Part shown: positions 6,632 to 37,584 of the stretch, one piece after another
Layout of the letters: every line of letters begins with the position of its first letter
How positions within the stretch are numbered: position 1 is the stretch's first letter
Source: Saccharopolyspora galaxeae
Lineage (GTDB): Bacteria > Actinomycetota > Actinomycetes > Mycobacteriales > Pseudonocardiaceae
Assembly: GCF_016526145.1 (NCBI RefSeq)
Contig: NZ_JADDUE010000021.1
Location: 1 to 38,657, forward strand
Length of the DNA stretch: 38,657 nucleotides
Reading direction: 5' to 3'
Position numbers and translations under genes: made by a program
The notes under the pieces: generated by a model
Databases searched by the model: none
What the model was told of the DNA's origin: nothing
Seen by the model: only the letters and a program-made list of their open reading frames with translations

Positions 6632-6640
6632 GGACTGACC
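6632..6640 (-). promoter_or_regulatory. FadR-like operator (GGTCAGTCC) upstream of the acyl-CoA dehydrogenase operon
   Basis: On the minus strand this reads TTTTGGTCAGTCCTTTAGTA, 50 bases ahead of the GTG start. The 20-mer is nearly identical to the site upstream of etfB (19 of 20 positions). The AT-rich stretch just downstream (TAAGAT) could be the -10 box. Which regulator binds is inferred from the GntR/FadR gene at 37602. Confidence 0.65.
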
Positions 6641-6685
6641 AAAATAAAACCGGATGCCACACTTCCGACGTCCGCCTCGGCGAGG

Positions 6686-7666
6686 TCACTCGCAGTCGAG
6701 GACGATCTTGCCGAACCCGCCGCCGCGCTCCAGGTATTCATGCGCCTCAGCGGCCTGGTCGAGCGGAAACGCCCGATCGACCACCGGCGCCCCTACCACA
6801 CCACCATCCACAAGGGACAGAAGTCCGTCGAAGTCCCGCGGGCTTCCCATGGTCGTGCCGAGCAGGTCGTACTGGCCGAAGTAGAAGTGCCGCACGTCGA
6901 GCACCGCGTCCGAGCGCCGCGATGCGCCCAACACCACGAGCCGTCCACCCGGCCGTAGGGCGTGCACGGCCTCCTGCCAACTGCCCACGGGATCCAGCAC
7001 CACGTCAAAACCGAGCCCACCTGGCGACAGCTGCTTGGCCTGCTCCCACCAGTCGTCGTCGGTGTAGCGCACGCCGCCTTCTGCGCCGAGCTCGCGCGCA
7101 TTGTCGACCTTGTCCCGCGAGGAGGACGTGACCACGACCTTCGCACCGGTCGCCGCTGCGAGTTGCACGGCCATCGTCGCGACACCGCCACCGGCACCGA
7201 GGACCAGGAGGGATTCGTCCTTGCAGAGGCGGCCACGGGCGAACAGCGCGCGATGGGTCGTGAGCCCCACCAACGGCAGCGCTGCCGCCTCGCGCCAGTT
7301 CAACCCCTGCGGTTTGGGACGCACGCAATCAACAGGCACGGTGACCAGCTCCGCGTAGGTACCGGCGTGATGATCACCGAGGATCTCCCATCCCGGAGCC
7401 GGAGCGCTCTCGTCGTCGCCCCACCACAAGGACGGGAGGACGACGACTTCCTCGCCGGTGTCGAGTCTGGTGCCCGCCCCGTCCGCACCGGGGACGTGCG
7501 GCAGCTTCGATCCGTACTTGCCCTGGCGGACGAGCACGTCGTGCCAGTTGAGCGCACCGGCCCGCAGACGGACAGTCACCCAGCCGGGCCGGGCCGTCGG
7601 CTCGTCGACGTCTTCGCACCGGAGATTGCGCGCGGGACCGAACTCGCGCAGGACCGCTGCATACAC
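6686..7666 (-). CDS. MDR-superfamily zinc-type oxidoreductase (quinone/enoyl reductase-like)
   Basis: A 326-residue medium-chain dehydrogenase/reductase. The GroES-like N-terminal half includes ALNWHDVLVRQGKYGSKLPH then VPGADGAG. The Rossmann half has LVLGAGGGVATMAVQLAAAT with the GxGxxG-like nucleotide site. No cluster of four structural cysteines is visible, so it belongs with the quinone oxidoreductase / enoyl-reductase branch rather than with true alcohol dehydrogenases. It probably uses NADPH to reduce an activated C=C bond such as an enone or enoyl-CoA; the substrate is unknown. ATG at 7666 has GAGAGGGG about 10 bases upstream. Two operator-like sites lie immediately upstream, which places the gene in the same putative regulon as the acyl-CoA dehydrogenase operon downstream of it. 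Confidence 0.8.
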   Translation of the reverse strand: MYAAVLREFGPARNLRCEDVDEPTARPGWVTVRLRAGALNWHDVLVRQGKYGSKLPHVPGADGAGTRLDTGEEVVVLPSLWWGDDESAPAPGWEILGDHHAGTYAELVTVPVDCVRPKPQGLNWREAAALPLVGLTTHRALFARGRLCKDESLLVLGAGGGVATMAVQLAAATGAKVVVTSSSRDKVDNARELGAEGGVRYTDDDWWEQAKQLSPGGLGFDVVLDPVGSWQEAVHALRPGGRLVVLGASRRSDAVLDVRHFYFGQYDLLGTTMGSPRDFDGLLSLVDGGVVGAPVVDRAFPLDQAAEAHEYLERGGGFGKIVLDCE

Positions 7667-7969
7667 TCGAAACCCCTCTCGGTCAGACCTTTAAAAGGGT
7701 AGGTCCATAACTGCCCGACGACAAGGACGTCGATGCACGAGCAATACCGAACCGCGGCTGGGCCATTCTCCACCGCTATGGCGAGCGGTCCAGCGACCGC
7801 CATCCCCCGCTGGGGGTGGCTTCCTCTCCCGGAATGGAGAACTTCGACGCGATCGCCACCCATTCGTGGCGTCGTAGGTCACAATCCGTCCGCCACCGAC
7901 CCGGTCCGAGCTGCCCGGAGCACGCGTCGAGCCCGCCCCGAGCAGCCGCCCGATAGAGAGGAGCCGGCC
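7667..7969. other. Divergent intergenic region between MDR gene and luxR
   Basis: About 300 bases without a gene. It holds two FadR-like sites near the MDR gene (7681-7706) and a near-perfect inverted repeat at 7799-7820 (GCCATCCCCC-GCT-GGGGGTGGC), about 150 bases ahead of the LuxR-type regulator. The latter could be a regulator site or a leader hairpin. Nothing else is recognisable. Confidence 0.5.
7681..7706 (-). promoter_or_regulatory. Two FadR-like operator sites upstream of the MDR gene
   Basis: 7681-7689 is GGTCAGACC, a perfect palindrome around one base that matches GGTCNGACC. 7698-7706 reads GGACCTACC on the minus strand, a one-base variant of the degenerate form. They are separated by TTTAAAAG and sit 15-40 bases ahead of the ATG at 7666, where bound protein would block transcription. 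The first site is strong; the second is weaker. Confidence 0.65.
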
Positions 7970-9145
7970 GTGAACGGCGCTGTTCAACGCTATGACCGCG
8001 GGAGTGCGCAAGAACGCAGGATCTCCGCAGCACTAGAAGAACCCCTGCGGCAGGCACGCGAGGTGCTGTCCGCAGCCGGCGACCTGACCCGCGCTCCCGG
8101 GCTCATCCCTGACGGTGGCCTCGACATGCACAACGCGGTCCACGCGATCAACGCCGCGGACCGGATTGTGACCAAGCGGATCGCCGCGCAGCCGGACGAC
8201 GCCGCGCAGCGGCAGCAGCTGATCGATCTGCTGGTGCAAGTCAGCGCGATGCGCGACGCGATCAGCGAGGCGCACCTGGCCAACCGCGCCACGGCGATGA
8301 CCGACGTCAACGACGCGCTGCGGCAGATGCATTCGGCCGCCTCGGTGCAGCAGCTGGTCCAGATCGTGCCCAAGATCGTCGGTCAGCTCGGCTACGACCG
8401 GACCCTGCTCTCCCACATCGAAGGGGACAGGTGGATCGCGCAGTCCGCCCACGCGGACGCCGACGCCGTCCTGGCGGAATCGATGGTCGAGGTAGGCACC
8501 GCCGCACCGGGCGTCCTGGATCGCAACGTCCCGGAAGGTCACGTCTTCCGCAGACGCGTGCCAGTGCTCGTCAAGGACGCGCAGGCGCGTCCGGAGGTGC
8601 ACCGAGAGCTCAAGACCCTCATGCAGACCAGGTCCTACGTCTCGGCACCGGTAGTGGTGAACAACCGGGTCGTCGGACTCGTGCATGCCGATGACAGCGC
8701 GAGCCCGGGCGGCGTCGACGAACTCGCCCGCCAAGTGCTGGGCCTGTTCGCGGAAGGGCTGGGCTTCGTGTTCGAGCGGACGTCGTGCTACGAGCGGCTC
8801 AACGCCTTGCAGCACCGGCTGCGTGTGGAGACGCGCGCAGTCGCCGATGCGGTCGACGTATTCGCCGAATCCGACTCTGGCGCTCCTCTGGTTGCGCGTC
8901 AGGGCTCTCTCGACATGGCGGGCTCGGCGGGGAAATCAGATTCAACGCCACCGCTGCCGGAGCTGACGCGACGCGAACTGGAGGTGCTCGCGCGCCTCGC
9001 GACCGGCGAGCGCAATGCCGAGATCGCCACCCGGCTGTTCGTCTCCGAAGGCACCGTCAAGACACACGTGAAGAGCATCCTCCGCAAGCTCGGCGCGGAG
9101 AACAGAGCGCAGGCCGTGGCGCGCTACCACGCCATGAGCCACTGA
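7970..9145 (+). CDS. GAF-domain LuxR-family transcriptional regulator
   Basis: A 391-residue regulator. A helical N-terminus is followed by a GAF-like sensor domain (about residues 118-270, with QLVQIVPKIVGQLGYDRTLL to SYVSAPVVVNNRVVGLVHAD) that probably binds a small ligand. The C-terminal LuxR/NarL helix-turn-helix is at about 325-385 (LTRRELEVLARLATGERNAE, then IATRLFVSEGTVKTHVKSIL). No response-regulator receiver domain is present. GTG at 7970 was chosen because AGAGGAG lies 8 bases upstream; the frame is open for 79 further codons without initiation signals. It stands directly upstream of, and in the same direction as, the P450 operon, so it is the natural candidate to control it, perhaps in response to a monoterpene. 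The ligand and the sign of control are unknown. Confidence 0.85.
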   Translation: MNGAVQRYDRGSAQERRISAALEEPLRQAREVLSAAGDLTRAPGLIPDGGLDMHNAVHAINAADRIVTKRIAAQPDDAAQRQQLIDLLVQVSAMRDAISEAHLANRATAMTDVNDALRQMHSAASVQQLVQIVPKIVGQLGYDRTLLSHIEGDRWIAQSAHADADAVLAESMVEVGTAAPGVLDRNVPEGHVFRRRVPVLVKDAQARPEVHRELKTLMQTRSYVSAPVVVNNRVVGLVHADDSASPGGVDELARQVLGLFAEGLGFVFERTSCYERLNALQHRLRVETRAVADAVDVFAESDSGAPLVARQGSLDMAGSAGKSDSTPPLPELTRRELEVLARLATGERNAEIATRLFVSEGTVKTHVKSILRKLGAENRAQAVARYHAMSH

Positions 9146-9283
9146 CCGGCTTGGAGCACCGCCGCAGCGAACCACGGTGCTGTCGACCGAAAATCGGCGC
9201 CCGGGTGCGCTGGCCGCGATGCCGCCGCTCCGCGGACTCGGTGTGCACGGTTGAGCTCTCCCAGAGGACCCGAGCGGGGTAGG

Positions 9284-9306
9284 AATCTCTCACCCAGGGG
9301 TGATGC
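9284..9306 (+). promoter_or_regulatory. Candidate regulator site upstream of the P450 operon
   Basis: AATCTCTC followed by ACC and CAGGGGTGA, about 100 bases before the P450 start. The core TCACCC-AG-GGGTGA is a near-perfect dyad. The same AATCTCTC and CAGGGGTGA elements, one to three bases apart, recur upstream of the aldehyde dehydrogenase gene on the minus strand at 15654-15674. LuxR/NarL-type proteins often bind C-rich/G-rich dyads (family knowledge), so the neighbouring regulator is the suggested ligand. Confidence 0.55.
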
Positions 9307-9402
9307 AGCACACGTCCTGGCGACAGGAGACTGCATTCCGATCCGGCGGTGCCGGATACCCCGAACGATTTCCCCCAGCGCACGCATAATCCGGGAGCAC
9401 GT

Positions 9403-11963: not shown

Positions 11964-11976
11964 CAGGAGGAAAACC

Positions 11977-12297: not shown

Positions 12298-12327
12298 CCC
12301 GCAGCCGAACAGATCAAGGAGTGCACG

Positions 12328-15800: not shown

Positions 15801-15829
15801 TTGAAATTTTGGTCTGACCATATTATTTT
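15801..15829 (+). promoter_or_regulatory. Promoter with embedded FadR-like operator for the CoA ligase
   Basis: TTGAAA (15801-15806) and TATTTT (15824-15829) are 17 bases apart, a plausible -35/-10 pair. Between them, GGTCTGACC at 15811-15819 is a perfect palindrome around one base inside TTTTGGTCTGACCATA. A repressor bound there would occlude RNA polymerase. The AT content is striking against the GC-rich surroundings. Confidence 0.7.
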
Positions 15830-15881: not shown

Positions 15882-17552
15882 ATGCTGCCAACGGCGACAG
15901 TTCAGGACCGGTACACCGACGAAGACGCGAAACGCTTCTACCGAGCCGGTTTCTGGCAGGACGCGAACCTGTTCGACCTCGTCGAAGCGCAGGCGCAAGT
16001 GCGCCCGGACAAGATCTTCGCGTCCGACGGGACGACGAACCTGACCTTCCGCGACCTCCGCGACCGCGGCGCGCGGCTGGCGCTCGGCCTCCGCCGCCTC
16101 GGGATCCGCCCGGGCGACCGGGTGGCCGTCCAACTGCCCAACTGGAGCGAGTTCACGCTGATCGCCACGGCGCTGGGCCGCATCGGCGGCATCCTCGTGC
16201 CGATCATGCCGATCTTCCGCGAGGACGAGGTCGAGTACCTGCTCACCCACTCCGGCGCGAAAGCGGCGATCACCTGCGAGCAGTTCAAGAACTTCGGATA
16301 CGTGGAGATGTACTCCCGGCTCCGCTCGAGGTGCCCGGAACTCCAGGAGATCATCTCGGTGCGCAGCACCGGCACGGACGGCCGGTGCATTCCGCTCGAG
16401 GAGCTGGTCGTCTCCGATCAGGTCGCCGGCGAGGATCCGGAACTCGGCCCGCACCCCTCGCCCGACGACGGATTCCTGATCGTCTACACCTCGGGGACGA
16501 CTTCGCGCCCGAAGGGCTGCTTTCACACCCTCAACACGGTTCGCGCCAGCAGTGCGGCCATCGCGCGCAGCCTGGATTACCGCGAATCCGACGTCCAATT
16601 CGGACCGTCGCCGATCACGCACTCGACCGGCCTGGTCACCAGCATGTTGCTCCCACTGCAGAGCGGTGCCGCATCGCACCTGATGGACGCCTGGGAACCG
16701 AATGCGGCGATGCGGCGAATCGCTGAGTACGGCTGCACCTCCGCGGTCACCGCGACCGCGTTCCTGGAGATGCTGCTGAACGTCTATAACCCCGACCAGC
16801 ACGATCCGAGCAGCATGCGCATGTGGGTGTGCGCGGGCGCTCCGGTACCGGCATCGGTCGTGCACCGCGCTGAGGAGATGCTCGGCGGCTGCCGGATCCT
16901 GAGCCTCTACGGCCGTTCCGAGAACTTCCTGACGACCATGTGCACTGTCGACGACGCGCCGGAGCGATCTGCGACCTCGGACGGGGCGGCCGTGAAATCC
17001 GCCGGGGCGAGCGTGCAGGTCGTCGACGACCGCGGCGAGGAGGTTCCCCGCGGCACGGAGGGCGACATCGCCTACAAGGGCCCCAGCCACATGATCGAGT
17101 ACTTCCGCGACCCCGAGCAGACCGCGGCCCTGTTCACACCGGACGGATACTCCCGCTCCGGGGACCTCGGGTACATGGACCAGGACGGGTACGTCCGGGT
17201 CACCGGTCGCTCGAAGGACATCGTCATCCGGGGCGGGTTGAACATCAGCGCCCGCGAGCTGGAAGAGCTCCTCGCGGAGCACCCGTTGGTCGCCAACGTC
17301 GCCGTGGTGGCGATGCCCGATGCCCGGCTGGGCGAAAAGGTCTGCGTGTACGTCGTGCCGGCCGAGCCGGCGGACCGGCCGTCGTTGGAGTCGATCGTGT
17401 CCTACCTGCGCGGGCGGAGAGTCGCGACCCCGAAGCTTCCGGAACGCCTCGAGCTGGTCGAGGAACTTCCGCTGACGGCGACCGGCAAGGTGCAGAAGCA
17501 CGTGCTGCGCGACGACATCAAGCAAAAGCTCCAGGACGGCGGGGTCGTCTAA
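15882..17552 (+). CDS. AMP-dependent acyl-CoA synthetase (cyclohexanecarboxylate-CoA ligase-like)
   Basis: A 556-residue adenylate-forming enzyme that makes an acyl-AMP and then the CoA thioester. Motifs: [11 protein letters not shown] (P-loop-like A3), LYGRSE (A5), [19 protein letters not shown] then [16 protein letters not shown] (A7-A8 hinge), and the C-terminal catalytic lysine in TATGKVQKH. It resembles AliA-type cyclohexanecarboxylate-CoA ligases and is a paralogue of the ligase at 35657 (shared RYxxE/DExxxxxYxAGxWxDxxLFD start and [11 protein letters not shown]). Substrates may be alicyclic or branched acids such as perillate, oleuropeate or isobutyrate; this is inference. ATG at 15882 suits the family start; upstream codons of the open frame cover the promoter. 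Confidence 0.85.
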
Positions 17553-17909: not shown

Positions 17910-18863
17910 TCAGCTCTTCAGCTCGGCGACCGCGCCCGTCAGTTGTGGAGCGACCTGGAAGAGGTCACCCACGATCCCGAAGTCGGCGATCTCGAAAATC
18001 GGCGCCTCCGGATCCTTGTTCACGGCCACGATCGTCTTCGAGGTCTGCATCCCGGCCCGGTGCTGGATCGCCCCGGAAATGCCCAGCGCGACGTACAGGT
18101 TCGGCGAGACGGTCTTGCCGGTCTGCCCGACCTGGAACTGCGCCGGGTAGTACCCGGAATCCACGGCCGCGCGCGAGGCCCCGACAGCGGCACCCAGCGA
18201 ATCCGCCAGCTGCTCGACCACCTCGAACGACTCCGCCGAACCGACGCCCCGGCCGCCGGAGACGACCACCGGCGCCTCGGCCAGGTCCGGGCGCTCCCCC
18301 GCCTCCGCAGGTTGGCGCCCCGTGATCCGCGCCGCCTTGCCGGCAACGCCGATGGCCACCTCTTCCGTGATCGGACTGGATGGTTCGTCCACGGGCTCGA
18401 TGCTGCCCGGCAGCACCGAGAGCACGGACACTCCCGCGGTCACCTCGGCCTCGGCCAGGTACGCGCCGCCGAACAGCGAATGCGACGCGACGCCCTCGGG
18501 TCCGAGGTCCACGACTTCCGACAGCAGCCCGGAACCCAGACGCACGGCCAAGCGGCCCGCGATCTCCTTGCCGTCGACCGACGCGGGGACGAGCACCGCC
18601 GACGGCTCGCGCGTGGCGACCAACTCCGCGAGGACGTCGACCTCCGGAACCAGCAACAACCGTGCTGCCTCGGGCGATTCGGCCGCGTAGATCTTCGCGG
18701 TTCCGTGCGCGGTGAGCGCATCAGCTACCTTCGCCGCCACCCCGGGTTCGCCGACGACTACCGCGGATGGCTCGCCGAGCCAGCGAGCCGCGGTCAGCAA
18801 CTCGGCCGTGACCTTCTTGACCTCGCCGTCGACGTGGTCGACGAGGACTAGAACTTCGGACAT
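17910..18863 (-). CDS. etfA: Electron transfer flavoprotein, alpha subunit
   Basis: A 317-residue ETF alpha (FixB) subunit. With ETF beta it carries electrons from acyl-CoA dehydrogenases to the respiratory chain. The N-terminal alpha/beta domain starts [18 protein letters not shown]. The C-terminal FAD domain has [10 protein letters not shown], the ETF alpha signature beginning [17 protein letters not shown], and [23 protein letters not shown] at 18863 lies 31 bases after the etfB stop with a GAGGAGG site nearby. The pair is the natural electron acceptor for the two acyl-CoA dehydrogenases in this window. Confidence 0.95.
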
Positions 18864-18893
18864 TACTGCGCTCCTCCTCGTGCGGCCCGGATT

Positions 18894-19685
18894 TCAGACC
18901 AGCTTCTGCGCTGCCAGGTACTCCGCGATCCGAGTGCCGCCATCACCGGCGTCGTCGAGCTTCTGCCCGGCCGGCTTCGGCGGGCGGGGTGCGGCGGCGA
19001 GGACCCGGGAGCCGGCGTGAGCGGTACCCACCTCAGCGGCGTCGATGCCCGCATCCGCCAGCGCCAGCACGGACAACGGCTTCTTCTTCGCCGCCATGAT
19101 CCCCTTGAACGACGGGTAGCGCGGCTCGTTGATCTTCTCCGTCACCGAGAGCACCGCCGGCAGTTCCGCTTCCAGTTGCAGCACCCCGGCGTCGGTCTCG
19201 CGGGCAGCGCGCACGGTTGACCCGTCGAGTTCGACGCTGCGGGCATGGGTGAGCTGTGGCCACCCCAGCAGCTCCGCGAGCATCGCTGGCACCGCCCCAC
19301 TCCGGCCGTCGGTGGCCTCGTTGCCTGCGATGATCAGGTCGACCGCCTCCAGCGTGCCAATCACCTTCGCCAACGCCCGAGCGGTCGCCGGTGCGTCGGT
19401 TCCCCGCAACGCCTCGTCGGAGAGGTGGACCGCCTTGTGTGCGCCCATGGACAGCGCCTTGCGGATCGCATCGGTCGCGCGGTCGGGCCCCATGCAGACC
19501 GCGGTGACCTCTCCCCCGTGCGATTCGACGATCTGCAGCGCCGCTTCCACGGCGCGCTCGTTGATCTCGTCCAGGACCGCGTCGACCGACTCGCGGTCCA
19601 GTGCGTGATCCGTCTCGGTCAACCTGCGTTCGGAGTAGGTGTCCGGAACCTGCTTGACCAGCACGACAACGTTCAACAGTCCCAC
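18894..19685 (-). CDS. etfB: Electron transfer flavoprotein, beta subunit
   Basis: A 263-residue ETF beta (FixA) subunit: NVVVLVKQVPDTYSERRL at the start, NEINERAVEAAL-like DEINERAVEAALQIVESHGG, an adenine-nucleotide site around IIAGNEATDGRSGAVPAMLA, and EKINEPRYPSFKGIMAAKKK near the C-terminus, all typical. The longest frame starts with GTG at 19685; a TTG at 19676 would give the family-like start MNVVVLVKQVP with a GTGGGA site, so the start is uncertain by three codons. It is the first gene of the etfB-etfA-small-gene operon and has its own FadR-like operator about 110 bases upstream. Confidence 0.94.
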   Translation of the reverse strand: MGLLNVVVLVKQVPDTYSERRLTETDHALDRESVDAVLDEINERAVEAALQIVESHGGEVTAVCMGPDRATDAIRKALSMGAHKAVHLSDEALRGTDAPATARALAKVIGTLEAVDLIIAGNEATDGRSGAVPAMLAELLGWPQLTHARSVELDGSTVRAARETDAGVLQLEAELPAVLSVTEKINEPRYPSFKGIMAAKKKPLSVLALADAGIDAAEVGTAHAGSRVLAAAPRPPKPAGQKLDDAGDGGTRIAEYLAAQKLV

Positions 19686-19793: not shown

Positions 19794-19802
19794 GGACTGA
19801 CC
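19794..19802 (-). promoter_or_regulatory. FadR-like operator upstream of the ETF operon
   Basis: On the minus strand: TTTTGGTCAGTCCTTTATTA, within an AT-rich island between etfB and the IclR gene. It is nearly identical to the site ahead of the acyl-CoA dehydrogenase operon and spaced like the one in the CoA ligase promoter. TTGTGT upstream and TACTTT downstream, 17 bases apart, may be the core promoter. The IclR gene starts 102 bases away on the other strand and could be affected too. Confidence 0.68.
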
Positions 19803-20662: not shown

Positions 20663-21078
20663 CCCCGGACTTCCCCAGCACCTGCGGAAAAGCCGTCGCA
20701 GGTCAGGCGTGGATCGCGGGCCGGACGGCAAGCTCCGGCAGTCGACCCGAATCTTGACGGGCGTCATCTATGGTCTTATGGTCCGACCGTCTCCATATAG
20801 GAATGTCGATCTGATGTAAGAACGCGCGTTTGGTTCGAGGTCACTGCGCGCGGTGTCGCCCGCTCCGCGCCCAGCCTTGATCTGCGCTGACGCCATCGGC
20901 GACTGCGCACCACCTCTCGCGGGGTTCAGCCTGCGCGTCCTCACCGGAGTTCGCGGCGCACCGCGAACTCCGCTCGGCATCGTCGCTACTGACGCTGCTG
21001 ATCCCAGAACCAGCGGCCGGAACTCGCAGATTTTCGGCGCAGGAAGCGCAGCACCAGCGAACAGGAAGGCCCCGATCG
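20663..21078. other. Intergenic region with the CoA-transferase promoter
   Basis: 416 bases between the IclR gene and the CoA transferase. The promoter and operator at 20754-20788 are described separately. From about 20800 to 21060 there is a long untranslated leader, or a second promoter, without a recognisable gene or RNA structure. Confidence 0.5.
20754..20788 (+). promoter_or_regulatory. Promoter with overlapping FadR-like operator for CoA transferase / dehydrogenase
   Basis: TTGACG (20754-20759) and TATGGT (20777-20782), 17 bases apart, make a good -35/-10 pair. GGTCCGACC at 20780-20788, a perfect palindrome around one base, overlaps the -10 box. An additional half site, TGGTCT, lies at 20771. 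The start codon is about 290 bases downstream. Confidence 0.68.
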
Positions 21079-22299
21079 ATGGCTGATCGTCGAGACGCCC
21101 ACAGCGCGAGTCCCGATCCCGGTCCGCTGCACGGCGTGACGGTCGTGGCGCTCGAGCACGCCGTCGCCGTCCCGATAGCCACGCGGCAGCTCGCCGATCT
21201 GGGCGCGCGCGTCATCAAGGTCGAGCGCCGCGACGGCGGGGATTTCGCGCGGCACTACGACGATGTGGTCCGCGGCGGGCTGTCGAGCGTGTTCCTGTGG
21301 ACCGGCCGGGGCAAGGAATCGATCACCACCGACCTCAAGCAGCCCGAGGGGCGCGAGGTGCTGCACGCGCTGCTCGCCGAGGCCGATGTGTTCATCCAGA
21401 ACCTCAGCCCCGGCGCGGTCGACCGCATGGGCTTCGGGGACGAAGACCTTCGGACACTGCACCCGCGGCTGATCGTCGTGTCGAACTCCGGCTACGGCGA
21501 ACCCGGCCCCTACTCCGGACGGCGGGCCTACGACGCGCTGGTGCAGTGCGAGTCCGGAGTGGTGGCCGCGACCGGAACCGGGGACGAGATGGTCAAACCC
21601 GGCTTCTCCGCCGCCGACGTCGCCAGTGGCATGCACATGTACTCCGCCGTGCTCATGGCGCTCTACCAGCGCGAACGCACCGGACAGGGCACGATCGTCG
21701 AGGTCGCGATGCTCGACGCGATCACCGACTGGATCGCCAACCACCTCTATTACACCCAGCACAACGGAGCGCCGCCCGAGCGCGTCAACATCGGCCACCC
21801 CTCCTTGGTCCCCTACGGGGCTTTCGCGACCGCGGACGGCGATCAAGTCGTGATCGGCGTGCAGAACGACCGCGAGTGGGCGCGGTTCGCGCGCACCGTG
21901 CTGCAATCACCCGCACTGGTGGACGATCCGAGCACCGCGACCACGATCGCGCGGGCAGAGCACCGCGCCCGGGTGGACGCGCTGGTGAACGACGCGACGT
22001 CCCGACTTGGCACCGCGAAGTTGCTGCAACTGCTCGACGAAGCCCAGATCGCCAACGCACGGGTGAACAGCCTTGCCGAAGCCGCCGACCACCCGCAGTT
22101 CACCGCCCGCGACAGGTGGGTCGAGGTGGAATCTCCGGTCGGGCCTGTGGACACCTTGCGACAGGTGATCCAGGAGCGGGGCAAGCAGTACCCCGCCGGT
22201 CCGGTGCCCGAGCTCGGCGCCCACACCGACGCGCTCCTCGGCGAGCTCGGCTACTCCGCGGCCGCCATCGCCGACCTCCGGCGGCGCGAAGTCGTCTGA
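21079..22299 (+). CDS. CaiB/BaiF-type class III CoA transferase
   Basis: A 406-residue family III CoA transferase, which moves CoA between acids through an aspartyl-CoA thioester. Features: the N-terminal GVTVVALEHAVAVPIATRQL then ADLGARVIKVE, the catalytic aspartate in RRAYDALVQCESG (D152), TGxGDEMVKPGFSAADVASG, GQGTIVEVAMLDA and the late RDRWVEVESPVGPV. The length is normal. ATG at 21079 is preceded by GGAAGG. It precedes an acyl-CoA dehydrogenase by 50 bases, so the pair probably activates a carboxylic acid and then dehydrogenates it. The donor and acceptor acids are unknown. Confidence 0.88.
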   Translation: MADRRDAHSASPDPGPLHGVTVVALEHAVAVPIATRQLADLGARVIKVERRDGGDFARHYDDVVRGGLSSVFLWTGRGKESITTDLKQPEGREVLHALLAEADVFIQNLSPGAVDRMGFGDEDLRTLHPRLIVVSNSGYGEPGPYSGRRAYDALVQCESGVVAATGTGDEMVKPGFSAADVASGMHMYSAVLMALYQRERTGQGTIVEVAMLDAITDWIANHLYYTQHNGAPPERVNIGHPSLVPYGAFATADGDQVVIGVQNDREWARFARTVLQSPALVDDPSTATTIARAEHRARVDALVNDATSRLGTAKLLQLLDEAQIANARVNSLAEAADHPQFTARDRWVEVESPVGPVDTLRQVIQERGKQYPAGPVPELGAHTDALLGELGYSAAAIADLRRREVV

Positions 22300-22349
22300 C
22301 CGCGAATTCCGCAGCACAGCCTGAAACCCCGACCGAGAGGCAGACTCGC

Positions 22350-23504
22350 ATGGTTTCGTTCGCTTTCACCGAAGAGCAGCAAGACTTCCAACGGACGCTC
22401 GCCGACTTCACCCGCAGGAATCTGCTGCCGGGCTATCGCGACCGCGCCGCGTCCACGACGTTCCCGTTCGACGTCCTGCGCCGACTCGGCGAGCTCGGCG
22501 TGCTGGGCATCGGGCTGCCCGAGAAGTTCGGGGGCACCGGTCAGGAAGACCCGATCATGCTGGGCTTGGCGACCGAAACGCTGGCCTACGGCGATGTGAA
22601 CCTGGCTTCGGCGCCGGTGCAGACCGGCCTCATCGCCTCCCAGCTCCTGCACGCGGACGAGGCGGTGCAGGAACGCTACCTGCCGCCCATGATCGAAGGG
22701 CGGGAGACGGTCGCGATCGCGCTCACCGAGCCCGGTTCCGGTTCGGATGCCGCTGCGATGTCCACAGTGGCCCGTCCGGTCTCCGGCGGGTGGCGCCTCA
22801 GCGGTGAGAAGACCGCCATTTCCTGGGCCTGCAACGCTTCCGCCGCGCTGATCTACGCGCGCGATCCCGGCAGCACACGTTCGTCCGGAGTGAGCTGCTA
22901 CCTGGTCCCGCTCGATTCCGCGGGCGCCGCCGTGCACCACATGCCGGGCATGGGCTGTCTGCCGCTCGGGTGGGGTTCCATCCACCTCGACGACGTTTTC
23001 GTGCCGGCGAGCCACCTCGTCGGCGAGCCGGGCACGGGTTTCCAGGCGGTGATGAGCCACTTCGACTTCAGCCGCGCAGCGCTGGGCCTGATGTGCCTGG
23101 GGGCCGCGCAGGTGAGCCTGGACGAAGCGGCCGCCTACGCGACCCAGCGCCACGCATTCGGCAAACCCATCGCCGAAAACCAGGGAGTCTCGTTCCCCCT
23201 CGCGGAGCACGCGACGTACCTCGAAGCCGCGCGATGGATGTGCTACCACGCCCTGTGGATGCGCGAGCAAGAGCAGCCGCACACGTCGCTGGCCTCCATG
23301 AGCAAGTGGTGGCCCCCGGTCGCCGCGAAGGACGCCGTGGAGGCCGCCATGAAGATCCACGGCAACCTCGGCTACTCCACCGAGTTCCCGTTGCAGCAGC
23401 GCTACCGCGACGTCATGGCGTACCTGGTCGCGGACGGGACCGCCGAGATCCAGAAGCGGATCATCGCCAAGGACGTGCTCGAGCGCGGCAGCGTGGTGTT
23501 CTAG
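22350..23504 (+). CDS. Acyl-CoA dehydrogenase (cyclohexanecarboxyl-CoA dehydrogenase-like)
   Basis: A 384-residue acyl-CoA dehydrogenase. The N-terminus is [20 protein letters not shown]. The flavin strand has [14 protein letters not shown]. The C-terminal part has [40 protein letters not shown] and the [10 protein letters not shown] segment in which the glutamate is the usual catalytic base position. It looks closer to the AliB/short-chain type than the dehydrogenase at 5416. ATG at 22350 is the family-like start; the far longer open frame upstream is in another frame of the CoA transferase. Its TAG overlaps the aldolase stop of the opposite strand in a shared CTAG, so the two units converge with no spacer. 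Confidence 0.88.
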
Positions 23505-24535
23505 CGCGGCGAGTCGGCGGTCAGTTCCAGGGCGATGTCCGCGATCATGTCCTCCTGGCCGCCGACCAGACCTCGCCGACCGACCTCCACCAGGATCTGT
23601 CGGGTGTCCAGCCCGTGCTCGGCAGCGGCGCGCTCAGCGTGGCGCAGGAAGCTCGAATACACCCCCGCGTACCCGAGAGTCAGCGTCTCCCGGTCTACCC
23701 GCACTGCGCGGTCCTGCAACGGGCGGACGATGTCGTCGGCGGCGTCCTGCAAGGCGAACAGGTCGCAGCCGTGCTGCCAGCCGTGCAGGTCGGCAACCGC
23801 CACGAACGCTTCGAGCGGACAGTTGCCCGCGCCGGCGCCGTGCCCCGCCAGCGAGGCGTCCACCCGGGTCACGCCCTCTTCCACCGCCACCACCGAATTG
23901 GCCACGGACAACGACAGGTTTTCGTGAGCGTGGATGCCGATCTCGGTGGCGTCGTCGAGCACGTCGCGGTACGCGCGAATCCGTTCCCGCACGTCCCGCA
24001 TCGTCAGTCGACCACCGGAGTCGGTGACGTACACGCAGCGCGCGCCCGCGGACTCCAGCTGCACGGCCTGCTTCGCCAGCTCGGTCGGCGAGGCCATGTG
24101 CGACATCATGAGGAAGCCGGACACGTCCATGCCGAGATCGCGGGCCTTGCCGATGTGCTGGGCGGCGATGTCCGCTTCGGTGGCGTGCGTGGCCACCCGC
24201 ACCGAGCGCACGCCGAGCTCGTGGGCGCGTTCGAGTTCCTTGATGGTCCCGATTCCCGGCAGGAGCAACGTGGTCAGCACCGCCCGGTTGACGACCTCCG
24301 CTGCGGCGGAGATCCACTCCCAGTCGGTGTTGCTCCCGGGGCCATAGGTCACGCTCCCGCCAGCCAAGCCGTCGCCGTGGGCCACCTCGATGGCGTCGAC
24401 GCCCGCGGAGTCCAATGCGGCGGCGATCGCGCGCACCCTGTCCGGGGCCAGTCGGTGCCGGATCGCGTGCATGCCATCCCGCAACGTGACGTCCTGGATG
24501 TACAGACGGGGCGTGCTCTGGTGCGGTGTGCTCAC
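23501..24535 (-). CDS. 4-hydroxy-2-oxovalerate aldolase
   Basis: A 344-residue class II pyruvate aldolase of the DmpG/BphI/HsaF family. It splits 4-hydroxy-2-oxovalerate to pyruvate and acetaldehyde, channelling the latter to its dehydrogenase partner. The barrel start is [13 protein letters not shown] (R19, D20, H23). Metal histidines are in [15 protein letters not shown] (H202, H204). [15 protein letters not shown] and the C-terminal communication domain ([20 protein letters not shown]) are present. GTG at 24535 has GAGGTGG and overlaps the dehydrogenase stop by four bases. It corresponds to the CmtG step of p-cumate catabolism and is the last gene of the five-gene lower-pathway operon. Confidence 0.94.
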
Positions 24536-25479
24536 GTGTCCACCTCGACGCGCTGCCGGGCCGCGTTCGCGGCGAGCTGCTCGGCCGTGCGCAGTGCGGC
24601 CGAGGTCATGATGTCCAAGTTGCCCGCGTAGGCGGGCAGGTAGTGCGCCGCGCCCTCCACGGCGAGGAATACCGAGACCTTCCAGCTCGGGCGCGGCGCG
24701 GCGTCGATCAGCGTGCCCAGCGGCTCGTCCGCGGCGACGGGCGTGATCTGCACCTGCTGCTTGAGCCGGTAGCCGGGCACGTACCTGGAAACCTCGGCGA
24801 CCATCCGCTCGACGCTGTCCCGGATCAGTTCGGGGTCGCCGTCGCCCGCCAGGCACAAAACCGTGTCTCGCATGATCATCGGCGGTTCGGCCGGATTCAG
24901 GACGATGATCGCCTTGCCGCGGTCCGCGCCGCCGACGACCTCGATCGCCTTCGCGGTCGTTTCGGTGAACTCGTCGATGTTCGCGCGGGTGCCGGGCCCC
25001 GCCGATTTCGAGGCGATCGAGGCGACGATCTCGGCGTACCGGACCGGTGCGACCCGGGAAACCGCTGCGACCACGGGAATCGTCGCCTGTCCGCCGCAGG
25101 TCACCATGTTCACGTTGGTGGCGGTTCGGTGCGCGTCCAGATTCACGGCCGGGACCACGAACGGCCCGATCGCTGCGGGCGTGAGGTCGACCAGCAGCTT
25201 CCCGTGGGGCTCCAGCAGCGCCGAGTTCCGCTCGTGAGCCGTTGCCGAGGTGGCATCGAAGACGACATCCACGTCGGCGAACTCGGGCATACCGAGCAGT
25301 CCCTCCACGCCACGATCCGTCGTGGAGACGCCGAGCCGACGCGCGCGGGCGAGCCCGTCCGAGGTGGGATCGACTCCCACCATCACCCCCATGTCTAGGG
25401 AATCGGACAGCCTGATCACCTTGATCAGGAGGTCGGTTCCGATGTTGCCGGAGCCTATGATCGCGACCTTGGTCTTCAC
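24532..25479 (-). CDS. Acetaldehyde dehydrogenase, acylating
   Basis: A 315-residue CoA-acylating dehydrogenase of the DmpF/BphJ/HsaG family, turning acetaldehyde, NAD and CoA into acetyl-CoA. The NAD site is [14 protein letters not shown]. The catalytic cysteine is in [12 protein letters not shown] (C128). [20 protein letters not shown] and [16 protein letters not shown] are family blocks. GTG at 25479 has GGGGGAG and overlaps the hydratase stop (GTGA). It acts as a complex with the aldolase encoded next and corresponds to CmtH. Confidence 0.94.
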
Positions 25480-30900: not shown

Positions 30901-31003
30901 AGGTCACCGCGATGCAGCGGCGATTCCTAGCCTGGGCTCCTCCCCCGGCCTCCCGGAGGTTCCGGGTGTGGGCAACGAAGGCCGCACTGAAACGGAGACG
31001 GGC

Positions 31004-32314: not shown

Positions 32315-32315
32315 C

Positions 32316-32819: not shown

Positions 32820-32854
32820 CGAACGGCGCGCGTCCACACCAGGAGGATTTACCG

Positions 32855-33986: not shown

Positions 33987-33995
33987 TCCCGTCCT

Positions 33996-34032
33996 CGGAG
34001 GAGCGGGCCTGCCCAGCCGGCTCGCTCCTCCG
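33996..34032. terminator. Bidirectional terminator-like hairpin between convergent genes
   Basis: CGGAGGAGCGGGCC (33996-34009) pairs with GGCTCGCTCCTCCG (34019-34032) with one mismatch around a 9-base loop. It lies between the dihydrodiol dehydrogenase stop and the opposing stop at 34045. No T-run is present on either side. Confidence 0.6.
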
Positions 34033-34044
34033 GCCTCGCTGGTC

Positions 34045-35055
34045 TCAGGCGAGGGTCGGGCGGTATGTGTAGGACGTGCTGCGGCTGAGCGCGAATTCGA
34101 AGATCCCCGTGCCGCGAACCCCGTTCCAGCGGTAGGACGCCAGCCGGTCGGTCAACGGCGAGTCGAGGGTCCGCTGGTGGACCGACCCATCCAGCGGGTA
34201 GGTGTCGTGCTCCAGGTGGTCCCGACCCATCCGGCGCCCGTGGTGCCCGCCGTACCCGCCACCCGCCATGAAGCCGCCACCGGCCGTGGCGTCCACGTCG
34301 ATCAGATATGTCGTGCCGCGCTTGGTCACCACTTCCACGGTGCCGTCCCGCAGGTCGAGCCCGTCGAAGCGGAGGTCGTGCCGGACGTCGACGACGGCGT
34401 CGAGGACGCCGTGCTCGTGCAGCACCGCACCTTCCAGCAGCAGTCGTCCGCCGCCGCGGTCCTCGACCAGCAGGAGGCTGACCGAGCGGTCCGGGAACTG
34501 CGCCTGGAACCACGCGTGCATCCCCTGGCCTCCCGAGAGGTTCCGCACGCCCCGGGACCGGTCCCGCTGGCCGTACCAGCCGTTGACCCGGTGCACCTCG
34601 CCGTCGAGCAGCAGCGTGCCTTCGTAGCGCCCGGACTGCACGAGGTGTTCGAAGTCGGTCGTCGCCGCGTCGGCGTTGTTCACCGCCACATCCCCGAGCC
34701 AGTACGGGGTGCGCGCCCGCCAGATCACGTCGTACTCCATGCCGGTCGGGTTGGGGGCGAGCCGGAGCCGCCAAGCCCGGTTCGGCTCGAGCACCTCGAA
34801 CCGCAGCGGGCCGGCGCCTCGTCCTCCCGTGGCGCTGAGTTCGGTGGAGAACCGGACGTTGCGCTGCTCGGTGTCCGTGGTGACGATCGCGAAGCCGTCG
34901 GCGACGTCCTTTGCCGGGTAGTGCCCGAACCCCGTGATCACCGACGGTGCGGTCTCCCAGGTCGGATGGAGGTTGAACATGAAGCGGTCGAAGAACCGCT
35001 CGGGCACGCCCGTCCCGCCGGGTTCGACCAGGTCGTCGTGGAATTCCTCGCTCAT
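34045..35055 (-). CDS. Lipocalin-like (CrtC/AttH-type or DUF7064-like) protein of unknown function
   Basis: A 336-residue soluble protein, apparently all beta, with no signal peptide. Notable blocks: FMFNLHPTWETAPSVITGFG, NRAWRLRLAPN, GTLLLDGEVHRVNGWYGQRD followed by RSRGVRNL, HAWFQAQFP, and a glycine/histidine-rich stretch around FMAGGGYGGHHGR. The G-x-QRDxSxGVR motif recalls proteins of the hydroxyneurosporene-synthase/AttH lipocalin superfamily, some of which add water to isoprenoid double bonds; this is recalled similarity, not a computed match. ATG at 35055 has AAGGAG. It converges on the dioxygenase operon. A role as a monoterpene-modifying or ligand-binding protein is inference from context. 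Confidence 0.55.
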   Translation of the reverse strand: MSEEFHDDLVEPGGTGVPERFFDRFMFNLHPTWETAPSVITGFGHYPAKDVADGFAIVTTDTEQRNVRFSTELSATGGRGAGPLRFEVLEPNRAWRLRLAPNPTGMEYDVIWRARTPYWLGDVAVNNADAATTDFEHLVQSGRYEGTLLLDGEVHRVNGWYGQRDRSRGVRNLSGGQGMHAWFQAQFPDRSVSLLLVEDRGGGRLLLEGAVLHEHGVLDAVVDVRHDLRFDGLDLRDGTVEVVTKRGTTYLIDVDATAGGGFMAGGGYGGHHGRRMGRDHLEHDTYPLDGSVHQRTLDSPLTDRLASYRWNGVRGTGIFEFALSRSTSYTYRPTLA

Positions 35056-35158
35056 CGGTTCTCCTTCCGACCGGTATCCGGTCTCCTGCTGCGAATCGGC
35101 ACGGGCAGCGCGACCGCCAACGACTTTCTGCTCCGGAGCACCGAGGTGGTCACGGTTC

Positions 35159-35461
35159 TCAGCGGTCCGCCTCCGCCGACGGTTCCGGGATCGAGCTGAG
35201 CACGCCGGCCTCGACCAGCGACGCCACCGCGTCCTCGGGCACGCCCCAGTCGGCCAGCGCCGACCTGGTGTGCTCGCCGGGTAGCGGCGGTGGTGAATCG
35301 ACGCGCGCCGGTGTCCGGCTGAATCGCGGCGCGGGCGCGGGTTGGGTCAATCCGTCGACCTGGACGAAGCCGCCGCGCGCTCGGTTGTGCTCGTCCTCGG
35401 CTGCTTCCTCCACGTCCAGCACGGCGGTTAGGCAGGCATCGCGTCCACGCGCCGCCTCGGT
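35159..35461 (-). pseudogene. C-terminal remnant of an alpha-methylacyl-CoA racemase / CaiB-type gene
   Basis: The last 100 codons of this frame, from about TEAARGRDACLTAVLDVEEA through NRARGGFVQVDGLTQPAPAP, RFSRTPARVDSPPPLPGEHT and SALADWGVPEDAVASLVEAG, reproduce the C-terminal end of AMACR-type class III CoA transferases (as recalled). Codons upstream of this bear no resemblance, and the 250 or so N-terminal residues with the catalytic Asp and His are absent from the window. The frame is open to 35599 but that part looks non-coding. It lies downstream of, and in line with, the CoA ligase gene, as if a ligase-racemase pair had lost most of the second gene by deletion. Confidence 0.75.
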
Positions 35462-35570
35462 GCACGAACGCGCCCTCCTTCGATGTGCGCTGAGACGCAG
35501 AAGTCCACTTCGGACTCCCGAAACCGAATTCCCTTCCCATAGAAGGCTTCCGGAAGCGGTGGAGTCCCGT

Positions 35571-35586
35571 ATTTTCCCGGGAAAAT
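35571..35586. promoter_or_regulatory. Perfect 16-base palindrome ATTTTCCCGGGAAAAT
   Basis: A perfect dyad without a loop, AT-rich at the ends, 71 bases past the end of the CoA ligase and ahead of the racemase remnant. The lack of a loop argues for a protein-binding site rather than a terminator; it may be a relic of the deleted gene's promoter. Function unknown. Confidence 0.35.
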
Positions 35587-35656
35587 CCAGGTCGGCCACC
35601 CCGGACCTCGACGCCCCCGCAGCCCCGACGCTCTCGGGCCGCCGCCCGCGGTCGGC

Positions 35657-37300
35657 TCATTCCTGAATCTTGTCCTTAATGTCGGCCCGCAGCAGGTGCT
35701 TCTGGATCTTGCCGGTCGCAGTGGTCGGCATCGCCTCGACGACCTCCAACCGCTCCGGCACCTTCTGGATCGCCAAGCCCTCGCCCAGCAGGTAGGTCTT
35801 GATCTCGTCGAACGCCGGCGGATTCGCCGAGTCGGCCGGAACCAGGTAGGCGCACATCTTCTCGCCCAGCCGCGCGTCGGGCATGCCCACGCAGGCGCTC
35901 TCGTGAACCCCGGGATGCGCCGCGAGCAGGTCCTCGACCTGCCGAACGCTGATGTTCAGCCCGCCACGGATGATGATGTCCTTGAGTCGGCCGGTGACCC
36001 GCACGAACCCGTCCTTGTCCATCACGCCCAGATCGCCGGAGCGGTGGAAGCCGTCGCTGGTGTAGTTGGCCGCGGTCTCCTCTGGCTGGTCGAGGTACCC
36101 GAGGCAGTTCATCGCCCCGCGGTAGGCGATGTCGCCTTCCTGTCCCGGCGGCAATTCCTCTCCTTCCGGCCCCACGATCCGCACCTCCTGATGTGGCAGC
36201 GCGCGACCGTCCGAGGTGAGCGAGCGGGACGGGTCGTCATCAACGGTGCACACCGTCGTGGTGATGCCCTCGGTCCTGCCGTAGAGACTGAAGACGTGCA
36301 TGTTCGGCAGAACCTGCCGGGCCGACTCGACCATGCTGGCCGGAACCGGCGCCCCGGCCGACGTCCAGAACCGCATGCTCCTGGCGTCATGCACGGCCGG
36401 GTCGTAGACGTCGATCAATGCCTGCAGGAACGTCGTCGCGGTCACCGCGGCCGTGCAGCCGAACTTCGCGATCCGCTCCAGACCCTCGCGCGGTTCCCAC
36501 TTCTCCATCAGGTGCGAGGACGCGCCGTGGATCAGCGGCATCAGGTAGCTGGTGACGAAGCCCGTGGTGTGCGTGACCGGCGAAGGTCCGAGTTGGACGT
36601 CATCGGCGGTGTAGCGCCACCCCTGGCCGAGCAGCCGGGCTCCGGCGCACATGGTGTTGAAGGTGTGCACGCAGCCTTTGGGCCGGGAGGTTGTGCCGGA
36701 GCTGAACATGATCGTGAACGGATCGTCCGGCGACGCACCCGGCCCGAGTTCCGCGTCCGAGGCAGCCGGTTCGGCGAGCAGGTCGCGGTACGCGACGGCC
36801 CCCGCGGGAACCTCTTCGGCCCGGACGACCACCACCGTATCCAAGGACTCGTGCGCACCCGCCAGGTCGACGAACAGTCCCGCGTGGTCGAAGCCCCGGT
36901 GCTCGCCGGCTGTAAAGGCCGCCTTCACGCCGGCGCTCTCGACGATGTAGGCGACTTCGTCTCGGCGATAGATCGGCATGATCGGCACCAGGACCGCACC
37001 TGCCCACGCGACCGCCGTGGCGATCGCGAAGAACTCCGTCCAGTTGGGCAACTGCACCGCGACCCGGTCGCCGGGCCCGATCCCCCGGCGCACCAGTCCG
37101 GAAGCCAGCCGCACCGCTGCGTCCCGCAACTCGCTGTAGGTGCACGAGGTGGTCGAGTCGGAGCCGAACAGCCCCTCCCCTCGTTCGGCCGCGTGCTGCT
37201 CGACCACGTCGAACAGCCGCTCATCGCGCCAAACACCGGCGGCGTAGTGGTCGCGGATCTCGTCCTCGCTGTAGCGGTCATGCACGGTCATGAGCGTCAT
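35657..37300 (-). CDS. AMP-dependent acyl-CoA synthetase (second cyclohexanecarboxylate-CoA ligase-like paralogue)
   Basis: A 547-residue adenylate-forming ligase. Motifs: [11 protein letters not shown] (A3), LYGRTEG (A5), RSGDLGVMDKDGFVRVTGR then [16 protein letters not shown] (A7-A8), and TATGKIQKHLLR with the catalytic lysine. It is a clear paralogue of the ligase at 15882, sharing the N-terminal RYSEDEIRDHYAAGVWRDER layout, [11 protein letters not shown] and RPKGCVHTFNT. The ATG at 37300 has GGTAGG five bases upstream; GTG 37306 and ATG 37291 are alternatives. A FadR-like operator lies 78 bases ahead. It probably activates an organic acid of the monoterpene route; the racemase/transferase that once followed it is now a remnant. 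Confidence 0.87.
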   Translation of the reverse strand: MTLMTVHDRYSEDEIRDHYAAGVWRDERLFDVVEQHAAERGEGLFGSDSTTSCTYSELRDAAVRLASGLVRRGIGPGDRVAVQLPNWTEFFAIATAVAWAGAVLVPIMPIYRRDEVAYIVESAGVKAAFTAGEHRGFDHAGLFVDLAGAHESLDTVVVVRAEEVPAGAVAYRDLLAEPAASDAELGPGASPDDPFTIMFSSGTTSRPKGCVHTFNTMCAGARLLGQGWRYTADDVQLGPSPVTHTTGFVTSYLMPLIHGASSHLMEKWEPREGLERIAKFGCTAAVTATTFLQALIDVYDPAVHDARSMRFWTSAGAPVPASMVESARQVLPNMHVFSLYGRTEGITTTVCTVDDDPSRSLTSDGRALPHQEVRIVGPEGEELPPGQEGDIAYRGAMNCLGYLDQPEETAANYTSDGFHRSGDLGVMDKDGFVRVTGRLKDIIIRGGLNISVRQVEDLLAAHPGVHESACVGMPDARLGEKMCAYLVPADSANPPAFDEIKTYLLGEGLAIQKVPERLEVVEAMPTTATGKIQKHLLRADIKDKIQE

Positions 37301-37377
37301 GGGCACCTACCCGTCACTTCGCCTGAGCGTCACCTGGCGTGCCCCGCATCACGCCACCATGCTCCAACTATTACAAA

Positions 37378-37386
37378 GGTCAGTCC
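37378..37386 (-). promoter_or_regulatory. FadR-like operator upstream of the second CoA ligase
   Basis: On the minus strand: TTTTTGGACTGACCTTTGTA followed by ATAG. The 9-mer GGACTGACC is the same as (complement of) the 6632 and 19794 sites, in the same AT-rich setting with a possible -10 (TAATAG) directly downstream. Confidence 0.65.
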
Positions 37387-37523
37387 AAAAACGGAAGAGC
37401 TTCGGAGTGACGGGAGAGGGCGACACCACGGGGGCACTGGGGCGGCCGCACCCATAGGGCGAGGAAGCTGCGAGCTAGAGCCGAGACTCAGCGGGCGATG
37501 TTGCACCGGCAAGCGGCCGGACA

Positions 37524-37584
37524 CGTCCGACCGGACGTCCACGAACTAACCCGCGAATGTTAGAATCAACCATAATATCCGACC
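37524..37584 (+). promoter_or_regulatory. Possible autoregulatory FadR-like sites ahead of the GntR gene
   Basis: CGTCCGACC at 37524-37532 differs from GGTCCGACC by one base, and TATCCGACC at 37576-37584 by two, the latter in the AT-rich context CATAATATCCGACCAAAAT only 18 bases before the GTG start. TAGAAT (37561) or CATAAT (37571) may serve as -10. These are weaker than the other sites; autoregulation is a suggestion. The rest of the 37301-37601 gap holds the operator at 37378 and nothing else recognisable. Confidence 0.45.

Follow-up and report, generated by a model that had tools for sequence, protein, structure and literature searches.

The 38,657-nucleotide contig NZ_JADDUE010000021.1 of Saccharopolyspora galaxeae (the whole stretch analysed, hereafter the window; contig C13 of the 6.4-Mb genome, 68.0% G+C) carries a gene for a GntR/FCD regulator near its right end (37602..38363, plus strand, with a GTG start at 37602), and six intergenic matches to the 9-mer GGWCNGWCC. 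These sites are quite probably the operators of this protein, through which it would repress a regulon for an alicyclic acid. The comparison with related genomes shows that the site, its phase within the promoter, its location and its co-occurrence with the regulator are all conserved. The regulon and its regulator are thus, as far as sequence can tell, strongly supported, and we infer from them the binding, the repression, the effector and the substrate.

The coordinates and sequences of the six sites, as listed in an earlier note on this DNA, are all correct, and three of them (7681, 15811 and 20780) are indeed perfect GGTCNGACC palindromes. The site at 6632..6640 (minus strand) precedes the acyl-CoA (coenzyme A) dehydrogenase operon, with a TANNNT hexamer 5 bp downstream, and that at 7681..7689 lies immediately upstream of the MDR (zinc-type dehydrogenase) gene, whose orthologues in loci L033, L036 and L102 are also preceded by sites. 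CoA ligase 1 has its operator at 15811..15819 (plus strand), with TTGAAA upstream and TATTTT 4 bp after it, and the ETF beta/alpha operon at 19794..19802 (minus strand); a site before ETF beta is found in L110 as well. A weaker operator at 20780..20788 (plus strand), upstream of the CoA-transferase and dehydrogenase genes, overlaps a possible −10 element (TATGGT), and the sixth, at 37378..37386 (minus strand), stands before CoA ligase 2, divergent from GntR, and is kept in the same-genus genome G003 though the spacer is only 70% identical. The flanks proposed for the sites were found in part: TTTTGG precedes four of the six, the exceptions being 20780 (TTATGG) and 7681 (no T-tract before the core), and a TTTANTA-like sequence follows 6632 and 19794, and loosely 37378 and 15811. 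A weak site in GntR's own promoter, as expected, is present at 37576..37584 (minus strand, TTTTGGTCGGAT, score 15.3 with the matrix described below), and is kept in G001 and in G003, in the latter although the spacer around it has diverged.

The bare 9-mer is not distinctive. The window contains 11 matches to it rather than six, the other five (11710, 12056, 26624, 32487 and 34179) sitting inside genes of the P450 and p-cumate modules, and those at 11710 and 32487 are also perfect palindromes. Enrichment of the 9-mer as a signal was rejected, since the counts in window and genome are near control: 11 matches compare with 7.81 expected (s.d. 3.07), a count reached by 18 of 100 shuffles, and genome-wide GGTCNGACC occurs 141 times, against 121 for the reversed control. 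The list of coding sequences leaves 16.7% of the window uncovered, and 6 of the 11 matches lie there (binomial p 0.0046); the list omitted two genes at about 23504-25476, so that the true intergenic share is smaller still. The statement that the P450 and p-cumate modules lack such sites is therefore wrong for the bare 9-mer with its five matches there, and right for the extended site. With a matrix trained on 11 sites of this genome, the 14 best matches in the window (scores ⩾7.6) all coincide with or adjoin the six sites, or fall in the promoter of GntR, a result that is partly circular because six of the 11 training sites are those of the window.

The exact extended site TTTTGGWCNGWCC occurs seven times in the genome, namely at 6632, 15807, 19794 and 37378 of the window and three times on contig C6. 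All six matches to the pattern GGWCNGWCCTWWRNTANNNT in this genome lie within the cluster, and its reversed control has no match in the genome. In G001, a complete same-species genome, the window and C6 are adjacent, so that all these sites belong to one cluster, whose span from 6632 to C6 90199 would be about 120 kb in own-genome coordinates. The sites at 7681, without its T-tract, and 20780 score 29.2 and 20.2, each score including the site's own contribution to the training. Both are kept in G001, the second with changes around it; around the first the two genomes do not differ at all, so its conservation there is little informative. Of the local six-promoter regulon first proposed, the shared operator thus holds and the extent does not: the regulon appears about twice as large as first described, counting at least 11 sites on the window and C6 together, and is present in other genera too.

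GntR orthologues (E ⩽ 1e-50) were found in 21 other genomes, 64–96% identical in 20 of them and 56% in one; that of Saccharopolyspora endophytica is 80% identical. Eight of ten loci hold orthologues (from Saccharopolyspora, two Amycolatopsis, three Frankia/Protofrankia, a Streptomyces and a Frankiales metagenome-assembled genome), and all eight have A/T-flanked GGWCNGWCC sites; the remaining two hold relatives of 26–31% identity. Ten GntR-positive genomes of the same family, examined as 20-kb stretches (G035, G068, G108, G170, G193, G202, G211, G216, which is the genome of L031, G225 and G242), have at least one A/T-flanked site each, and only one in G108 and G211. The genes recurring around GntR, a set not complete in every genome, encode a PimD-like protein; the acyl-CoA dehydrogenase ACAD1 with thiolase, CoA-transferase, HMG-CoA lyase, BadH-like and BadI/MenB-like proteins; a PimC-like protein with an acetyl-CoA-synthetase-like ligase; and a ligase, an enoyl-CoA hydratase and an MDR.

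When the matrix was run on 23 other stretches of GntR-positive genomes (450,475 bases; L031, which is the same contig as G216 C12 by length and coordinates, was excluded), 93 matches scored ⩾14, against 0.8 in shuffles (mean of five sets). The control loci gave four such matches in 183,021 bases (strands counted apart), in a set that takes in two non-actinobacterial loci (L039, L040) and two stretches near the cluster itself (L044, and L050/L051 of G003). After merging, 68 sites score ⩾15; none is inside an annotated gene and 60 are within 250 bp upstream of one, the annotation covering only genes found with 30 query proteins from the window and C6. Fourteen precede ACAD1, 15 PimC, 14 PimD and 16 GntR, one site being able to precede two genes, and ligase genes are also frequent. 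In 16 of 17 orthologous loci the gene for the regulator has an operator in the 250 bp before it, often shared with a divergent PimD-like gene, which suggests that GntR regulates itself. Streptomyces humicola carries two adjacent GntR copies (L037 9926-11689), each about 72% identical to that of the window and each with an A/T-flanked 9-mer upstream. Elsewhere, in locus L114 of genome G110, which has no GntR orthologue, two GGTCGGACC sites stand 34 bp apart (9688 and 9722) in A/T-rich DNA and are perhaps operators of a different regulator.

The co-occurrence of pattern and regulator was tested genome-wide. The pattern GGWCNGWCCTWWRNTANNNT was built from this genus and L031–L038, and GntR was called at E ⩽ 1e-50. 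Within the family (249 genomes), GntR was present in 14, the pattern in 14 and both in 11; within the class (394 genomes), the numbers were 9, 6 and 5. The two scans share three genomes (G000, G038, G050), giving 640 in all, and the pattern is found in 15 of 22 GntR-positive as compared with 4 of 618 GntR-negative genomes (Fisher p 8e-22; related genomes are not independent, so that this and the following p-values are too small, with the direction clear). After removal of the seven genomes that served as a source of the pattern (G000, G001, G003 and G216, together with G507, G547 and G563, which correspond to L035, L036 and L033 by contig number or GntR coordinate), 8 of 15 GntR-positive genomes still carry it (p 5e-12, or 1e-10 when a near-duplicate genome is also removed), a count in which possible kinship of other genomes to L032, L034, L037 and L038 is not accounted for. 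In the family scan, 29 of 32 pattern matches are in GntR-positive genomes.

A control with the enzyme itself points the same way. Orthologues of ACAD1 (⩾79% identical) have the operator, within the 150 bp scanned, in 11 of 13 GntR-positive genomes, as against 0 of 3 near-complete GntR-negative ones (G087, G133 and G236; p 0.018; a second ACAD1 copy in G068 was not counted), and these three have no exact GGWCNGWCCTWWRNTANNNT match anywhere in the genome. The two GntR-positive exceptions are G003, which has GGTCAGGCC, and G108, where ACAD1 sits close behind a ligase gene. We have accordingly rejected the idea that the motif is an inherent part of the ACAD1 promoter, as the near-complete GntR-negative genomes with ACAD1 do without it. 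None of 13 more distant ACAD1 homologues (63–66%) has the 9-mer within 150 bp upstream. Several of these (upstream regions L084–L096) carry TTCGTATGTACGAAC-like palindromes instead, and may be under another regulator.

As to the sign of control, the position of the operator is informative. Among 29 promoters, hand-picked from the ACAD1 and PimC promoters having the 9-mer, a TANNNT hexamer starts exactly 5 bp after it in 25 (14 of 15 for ACAD1 and 11 of 14 for PimC). A dimer of the 37602 protein would bind GGWCNGWCC in its A/T-rich flanks and, the operator being 5 bp before a −10-like hexamer in most targets, would come to lie in the promoter spacer and block RNA polymerase. Because the operator is placed in the spacer beside the −10 element, repression by steric block is judged most likely. 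The pathway acid or its CoA ester would then release GntR, and the regulon would be a supra-operonic set of genes whose products activate an alicyclic carboxylic acid, open its ring and carry out beta-oxidation, with the aromatic (p-cumate) branch alongside and separately controlled. That the CoA branch is separate from the aromatic branch, as had been proposed, is supported by the comparison, and so is the proposal that the linked GntR protein is the most likely reader of a shared operator of FadR-subfamily type. A sigma-factor promoter was also considered for the motif and rejected, since the core is a palindrome, TANNNT follows it at 5 bp, a gap unlike any usual −35/−10 spacing, and no match to the sigma-type gene at 1382-2041 turned up in 26 other stretches. 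In many ACAD1 promoters, CCAAA occurs about 15 bp after the 9-mer (window 6612-6616, minus strand; L098, L034, L111); it is possibly an extra half-site of the kind mentioned in PMC4494728.

The regulator has the two-domain organization of the GntR/FCD family, an N-terminal helix-turn-helix (HTH) and a C-terminal FCD domain, with Pfam scores of 60.5 (GntR) and 86.4 bits (FCD), both above cut-off. Its candidate operators, in its own and other loci, have the GGTCNGACC core and A/T flanks of the FadR subfamily, and many are GGTCNGTCC, with one half imperfect. The label 'FadR-like' therefore suits the operator type; it does not extend to orthology, because the curated FadR models are missed (NF003444 49.8 versus 189, TIGR02812 48.7 versus 249.2, PF07840 FadR_C 22.7 versus 23.6), nor, probably, to the pathway as far as the enzymes show, the target genes looking ring-acid-like by matches mostly below cut-off. 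The protein is well below the NCBIfam cut-offs for NanR, PdhR, LldR, GlcC and FadR. A structure model has a mean pLDDT of 82 and a pTM of 0.69, and the whole-chain Foldseek root-mean-square deviations of the listed matches are mostly 12–18 Å, so only family-level fold neighbours were used. The best-ranked solved structures are NanR, a Streptococcus GntR, DhdR, VanR, Lar and CGL2915, whereas E. coli FadR ranks 38th.

Mapping onto FadR (alignment start 28 to 14, no gap assumed, contacts from the table in PMC4494728) indicates that Glu34, Arg35, Arg45, Thr47, Arg49, Glu50 and Gly66 are kept as E48, R49, R59, T61, R63, E64 and G80, the base-contacting Arg35 and Arg45 thus being R49 and R59. Thr46 is replaced by S60 (mostly Thr in the orthologues) and His65 by S79. 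In the C-terminal domain, three histidines (H165, H210 and H232; spacing 45 and 22) are invariant in 16 of 16 aligned orthologues, and the residue four before the first one is Asn. A His spacing with the 22-residue gap is also reported for TM0439 and CGL2915 (PMC7674646, PMC4746285). By sequence and model, the regulator is an FCD protein of the NanR/DhdR/LldR kind whose metal-ligand triad is intact, and metal binding is predicted for it. Since metal-containing FCD proteins bind carboxylic acids such as citrate and galactonate (PMC7674646, PMC4746285), the free ring acid is a good effector candidate. By this analogy a free carboxylate seems at least as likely as an acyl-CoA, which stays as one of two live options.

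Several observations weigh against the operator reading, besides the non-independence of related genomes mentioned above. The 9-mer is enriched in neither window nor genome, and with one mismatch allowed TTTTGGWCNGWCC is found 37 times versus 25 for the reversed control, so that the loose form is hardly enriched. Reversed-control matches do occur and are scattered: the family scan gave 10 and the class scan 17. Seven GntR-positive genomes are without the exact pattern (G108, G170 and G211 of the family, which carry looser sites, and G266, G304, G455 and G598 of the class), and four have the pattern without a detected GntR (G016, G055, G110 and G413), of which G016 is 74% complete and has the operator before ACAD1. 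The loci were picked via GntR, which makes linkage alone circular, in a way that the genome-wide co-occurrence test is not. The enzyme control took in no more than 150 bp, and at least in G087, among its three GntR-negative genomes, this DNA resembles the end of a different gene. In the PimC promoters TANNNT is present at 0 (10 of 14) and +2 (7 of 14) as well, leaving their −10 element ambiguous. Finally, an exact operator with TANNNT at +5 at C6 82036 (L043 7813-8044, C6 about 81.8–82.0 kb) is followed by just a C-terminal ETF-alpha remnant of 43 residues (72% identity to the window protein), as though a deletion had removed an ETF operon but spared its promoter; thioesterase, ferredoxin reductase, aldehyde dehydrogenase (ALDH) and alcohol dehydrogenase (ADH) genes lie farther downstream.

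The lack of enrichment is what a chance origin of the sites from a common 9-mer would give, and yet this explanation is hardly credible in the face of the comparative tests, which contradict it: this genome has no exact copy of the extended site outside the cluster, orthologous promoters in other genera keep the site, and its presence goes with that of the regulator. It is also improbable that another regulator of the cluster (the LuxR-GAF protein, an IclR or another GntR paralogue) reads the sites. LuxR-GAF relatives (33–42%) are present in 7 of 26 stretches, and this genome has 20 matches to the window GntR at E ⩽ 1e-3; on the other hand, IclR1, IclR2 and the sigma factor have no match at E ⩽ 1e-10 in the 26 other stretches, and a GntR orthologue is present in 18 of the 26, these having been chosen via GntR. 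Moreover, 614 of 618 GntR-negative genomes are without the pattern, though relatives of other GntR kinds are common, and GT-N3-AC in A/T-rich flanks is the FadR-subfamily consensus (PMC4494728). A somewhat stronger, still unlikely, alternative keeps operator and regulator and turns the latter into an activator, the site replacing a missing −35 element and an effector-bound form recruiting or remodelling RNA polymerase. The fixed 5-bp phase would suit this, and a search for a −35 element gave nothing above shuffles (101 of 500 reach the observed value), which counts against repression and would allow activation. Against an activator, there is a plausible −35 element at 15811, and a dimer bound at the site, within the spacer, would probably stand in the way of the polymerase. 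Weak −35 elements are, besides, common in actinobacteria. Some FCD proteins do activate, for example CitO (PMC4746285).

Which substrate the putative repressor serves is a separate question. As judged from sequence, the enzymes look like a cyclohexanecarboxylate-type (bad/ali/pim-like) ring-acid pathway rather than fatty-acid degradation, and the substrate may be a p-menthane (perillate-like) acid or some other 4-substituted cyclohexane(ene)carboxylate. The combination of thiolase, CoA transferase and HMG-CoA lyase would make chemical sense if a 3-substituted glutaryl-CoA arose from a 4-substituted cyclohexanecarboxylate, and a p-menthane acid would give isobutyryl-type products, also fitting the p-cumate branch. 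The points to be set against this are that the ring-pathway names rest mostly on matches below curated cut-offs, and that the BadI-like protein passes as MenB (445 bits), with 269 bits for BadI (TIGR03210, cut-off 468); the Rhodococcus BadI is itself annotated as a naphthoate synthase (PMC4591350). The cyclohexanecarboxyl-CoA dehydrogenase model TIGR03207 (cut-off 575) gives 340 bits for the C6 protein and 313 for that of the window, the 2-hydroxycyclohexanecarboxyl-CoA dehydrogenase model TIGR03206 285 (cut-off 431), and the PimC model 197 bits. Among the matches listed, cut-offs are passed for HMG-CoA lyase, MenB and the generic thiolase model only; the curated AliA, AliB, BadH and BadI models are not reached, which makes these proteins bad-ali relatives and not proven members. 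The operator as described may hence belong to a pathway for a different kind of substrate, such as fatty, steroid or diterpenoid acids, a serious prospect if short of an even chance. Apart from the low scores, an MlaE-type permease adjoins, IpdE2 and steroid-thiolase models also match (below cut-off), and for both window ligases the medium-chain model is slightly above the cyclohexanecarboxylate-CoA ligase model TIGR03208. A ring acid is favoured by the presence, in several genomes, of BadH-like and BadI/MenB-like genes next to those for HMG-CoA lyase, CoA transferase, thiolase and ACAD1, and by AliB- and PimC-like dehydrogenases within the regulon.

The window genes were named by Pfam and NCBIfam profile matches. 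Its left part has an MlaE permease and, beside it at the cluster edge, a protein with sigma-70 regions 2 and 4 (1382-2041, ECF-like), followed by the operon behind the 6632 operator, all on the minus strand: ACAD1 as first gene (5416..6588, start approximate), an SDR (4667..5416), a thiolase (3468..4667) and the HMG-CoA-lyase-type enzyme (2501..3427; NF004283 326 bits, cut-off 246). The MDR-type zinc-binding dehydrogenase (6686..7666, minus) and a LuxR-GAF regulator come next. The middle part contains a P450 with reductase, ferredoxin and ADH, an ALDH, CoA ligase 1 (15882..17552, plus, scored from 15876; TIGR03208 408 bits, cut-off 792; medium-chain model 429, cut-off 736), ETF beta and alpha (17910..19685, minus), an IclR, a family III CoA-transferase (21079..22299, plus) and a second acyl-CoA dehydrogenase (22299..23504, plus), nearest cyclohexanecarboxyl-CoA dehydrogenase. 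The aromatic meta-cleavage module, for which p-cumate as substrate is the earlier note's label, consists of a Rieske dioxygenase, a LigB dioxygenase, an amidohydrolase, an alpha/beta hydrolase, an FAA hydrolase, a DmpG-type aldolase (23504-24856), an acetaldehyde dehydrogenase and an IclR. An open reading frame without a Pfam match lies at 35052-35660, and CoA ligase 2 (35657..37306, minus; TIGR03208 376 bits, below cut-off; medium-chain model 403) precedes GntR at the right end.

Taken together, the cluster offers a testable regulator–operator pair for the catabolism of ring acids (naphthenic or monoterpene acids) in actinobacteria, which would help to predict genomes that degrade such acids and might be a biosensor part. 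A bolder version, in which a metal-dependent FCD GntR senses the free ring acid rather than an acyl-CoA and controls at least 10 promoters via a −10-phased operator, in several actinobacterial genera and within a terpene-acid island of about 120 kb, is put forward as tentative and rather doubtful. If true, it would be a previously undescribed regulatory type for alicyclic or monoterpenoid acid catabolism, with GntR as a carboxylate sensor. No GntR regulator of ring-acid catabolism was found in the open-licence literature searched, an absence that is weak evidence.

Among known systems, the FadR consensus TGGTCNGACCA fits the core of the window sites. E. coli FadR shares with the window protein a winged HTH with the same Arg contacts and a palindromic GT-N3-AC operator (PMC4494728); it differs in that the window GntR is not its orthologue, has Ser for the FadR His65 and a metal-type FCD domain, and has other targets. 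The metal-binding FCD regulators NanR, DhdR, CGL2915/LldR, TM0439, DgoR and CitO share the three-His spacing, and NanR, DhdR and CGL2915 are among the top fold neighbours, whereas target pathway and operator are different; NanR, for instance, reads GGTATA-type direct repeats (PMC4494728, PMC8012715). The monoterpene ring-cleavage (mrc) genes of Castellaniella defragrans belong to a betaproteobacterium and have MarR and LuxR genes nearby, with no GntR in the parts of PMC4109377 covered, but encode comparable perillyl-CoA hydratase, 2-hydroxy dehydrogenase and 2-oxo hydrolase steps (PMC4109377). According to PMC9795900, bad-ali clusters have MarR regulators in Gram-negatives and a TetR-like gene in Gram-positives. 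BadR of Rhodopseudomonas and Aromatoleum likewise represses cyclohexanecarboxylate genes, and responds to a pathway CoA ester (PMC9795900); it is a MarR-family protein with the operator CAAN4TTG, while the linked regulator here, a putative repressor, is a GntR.

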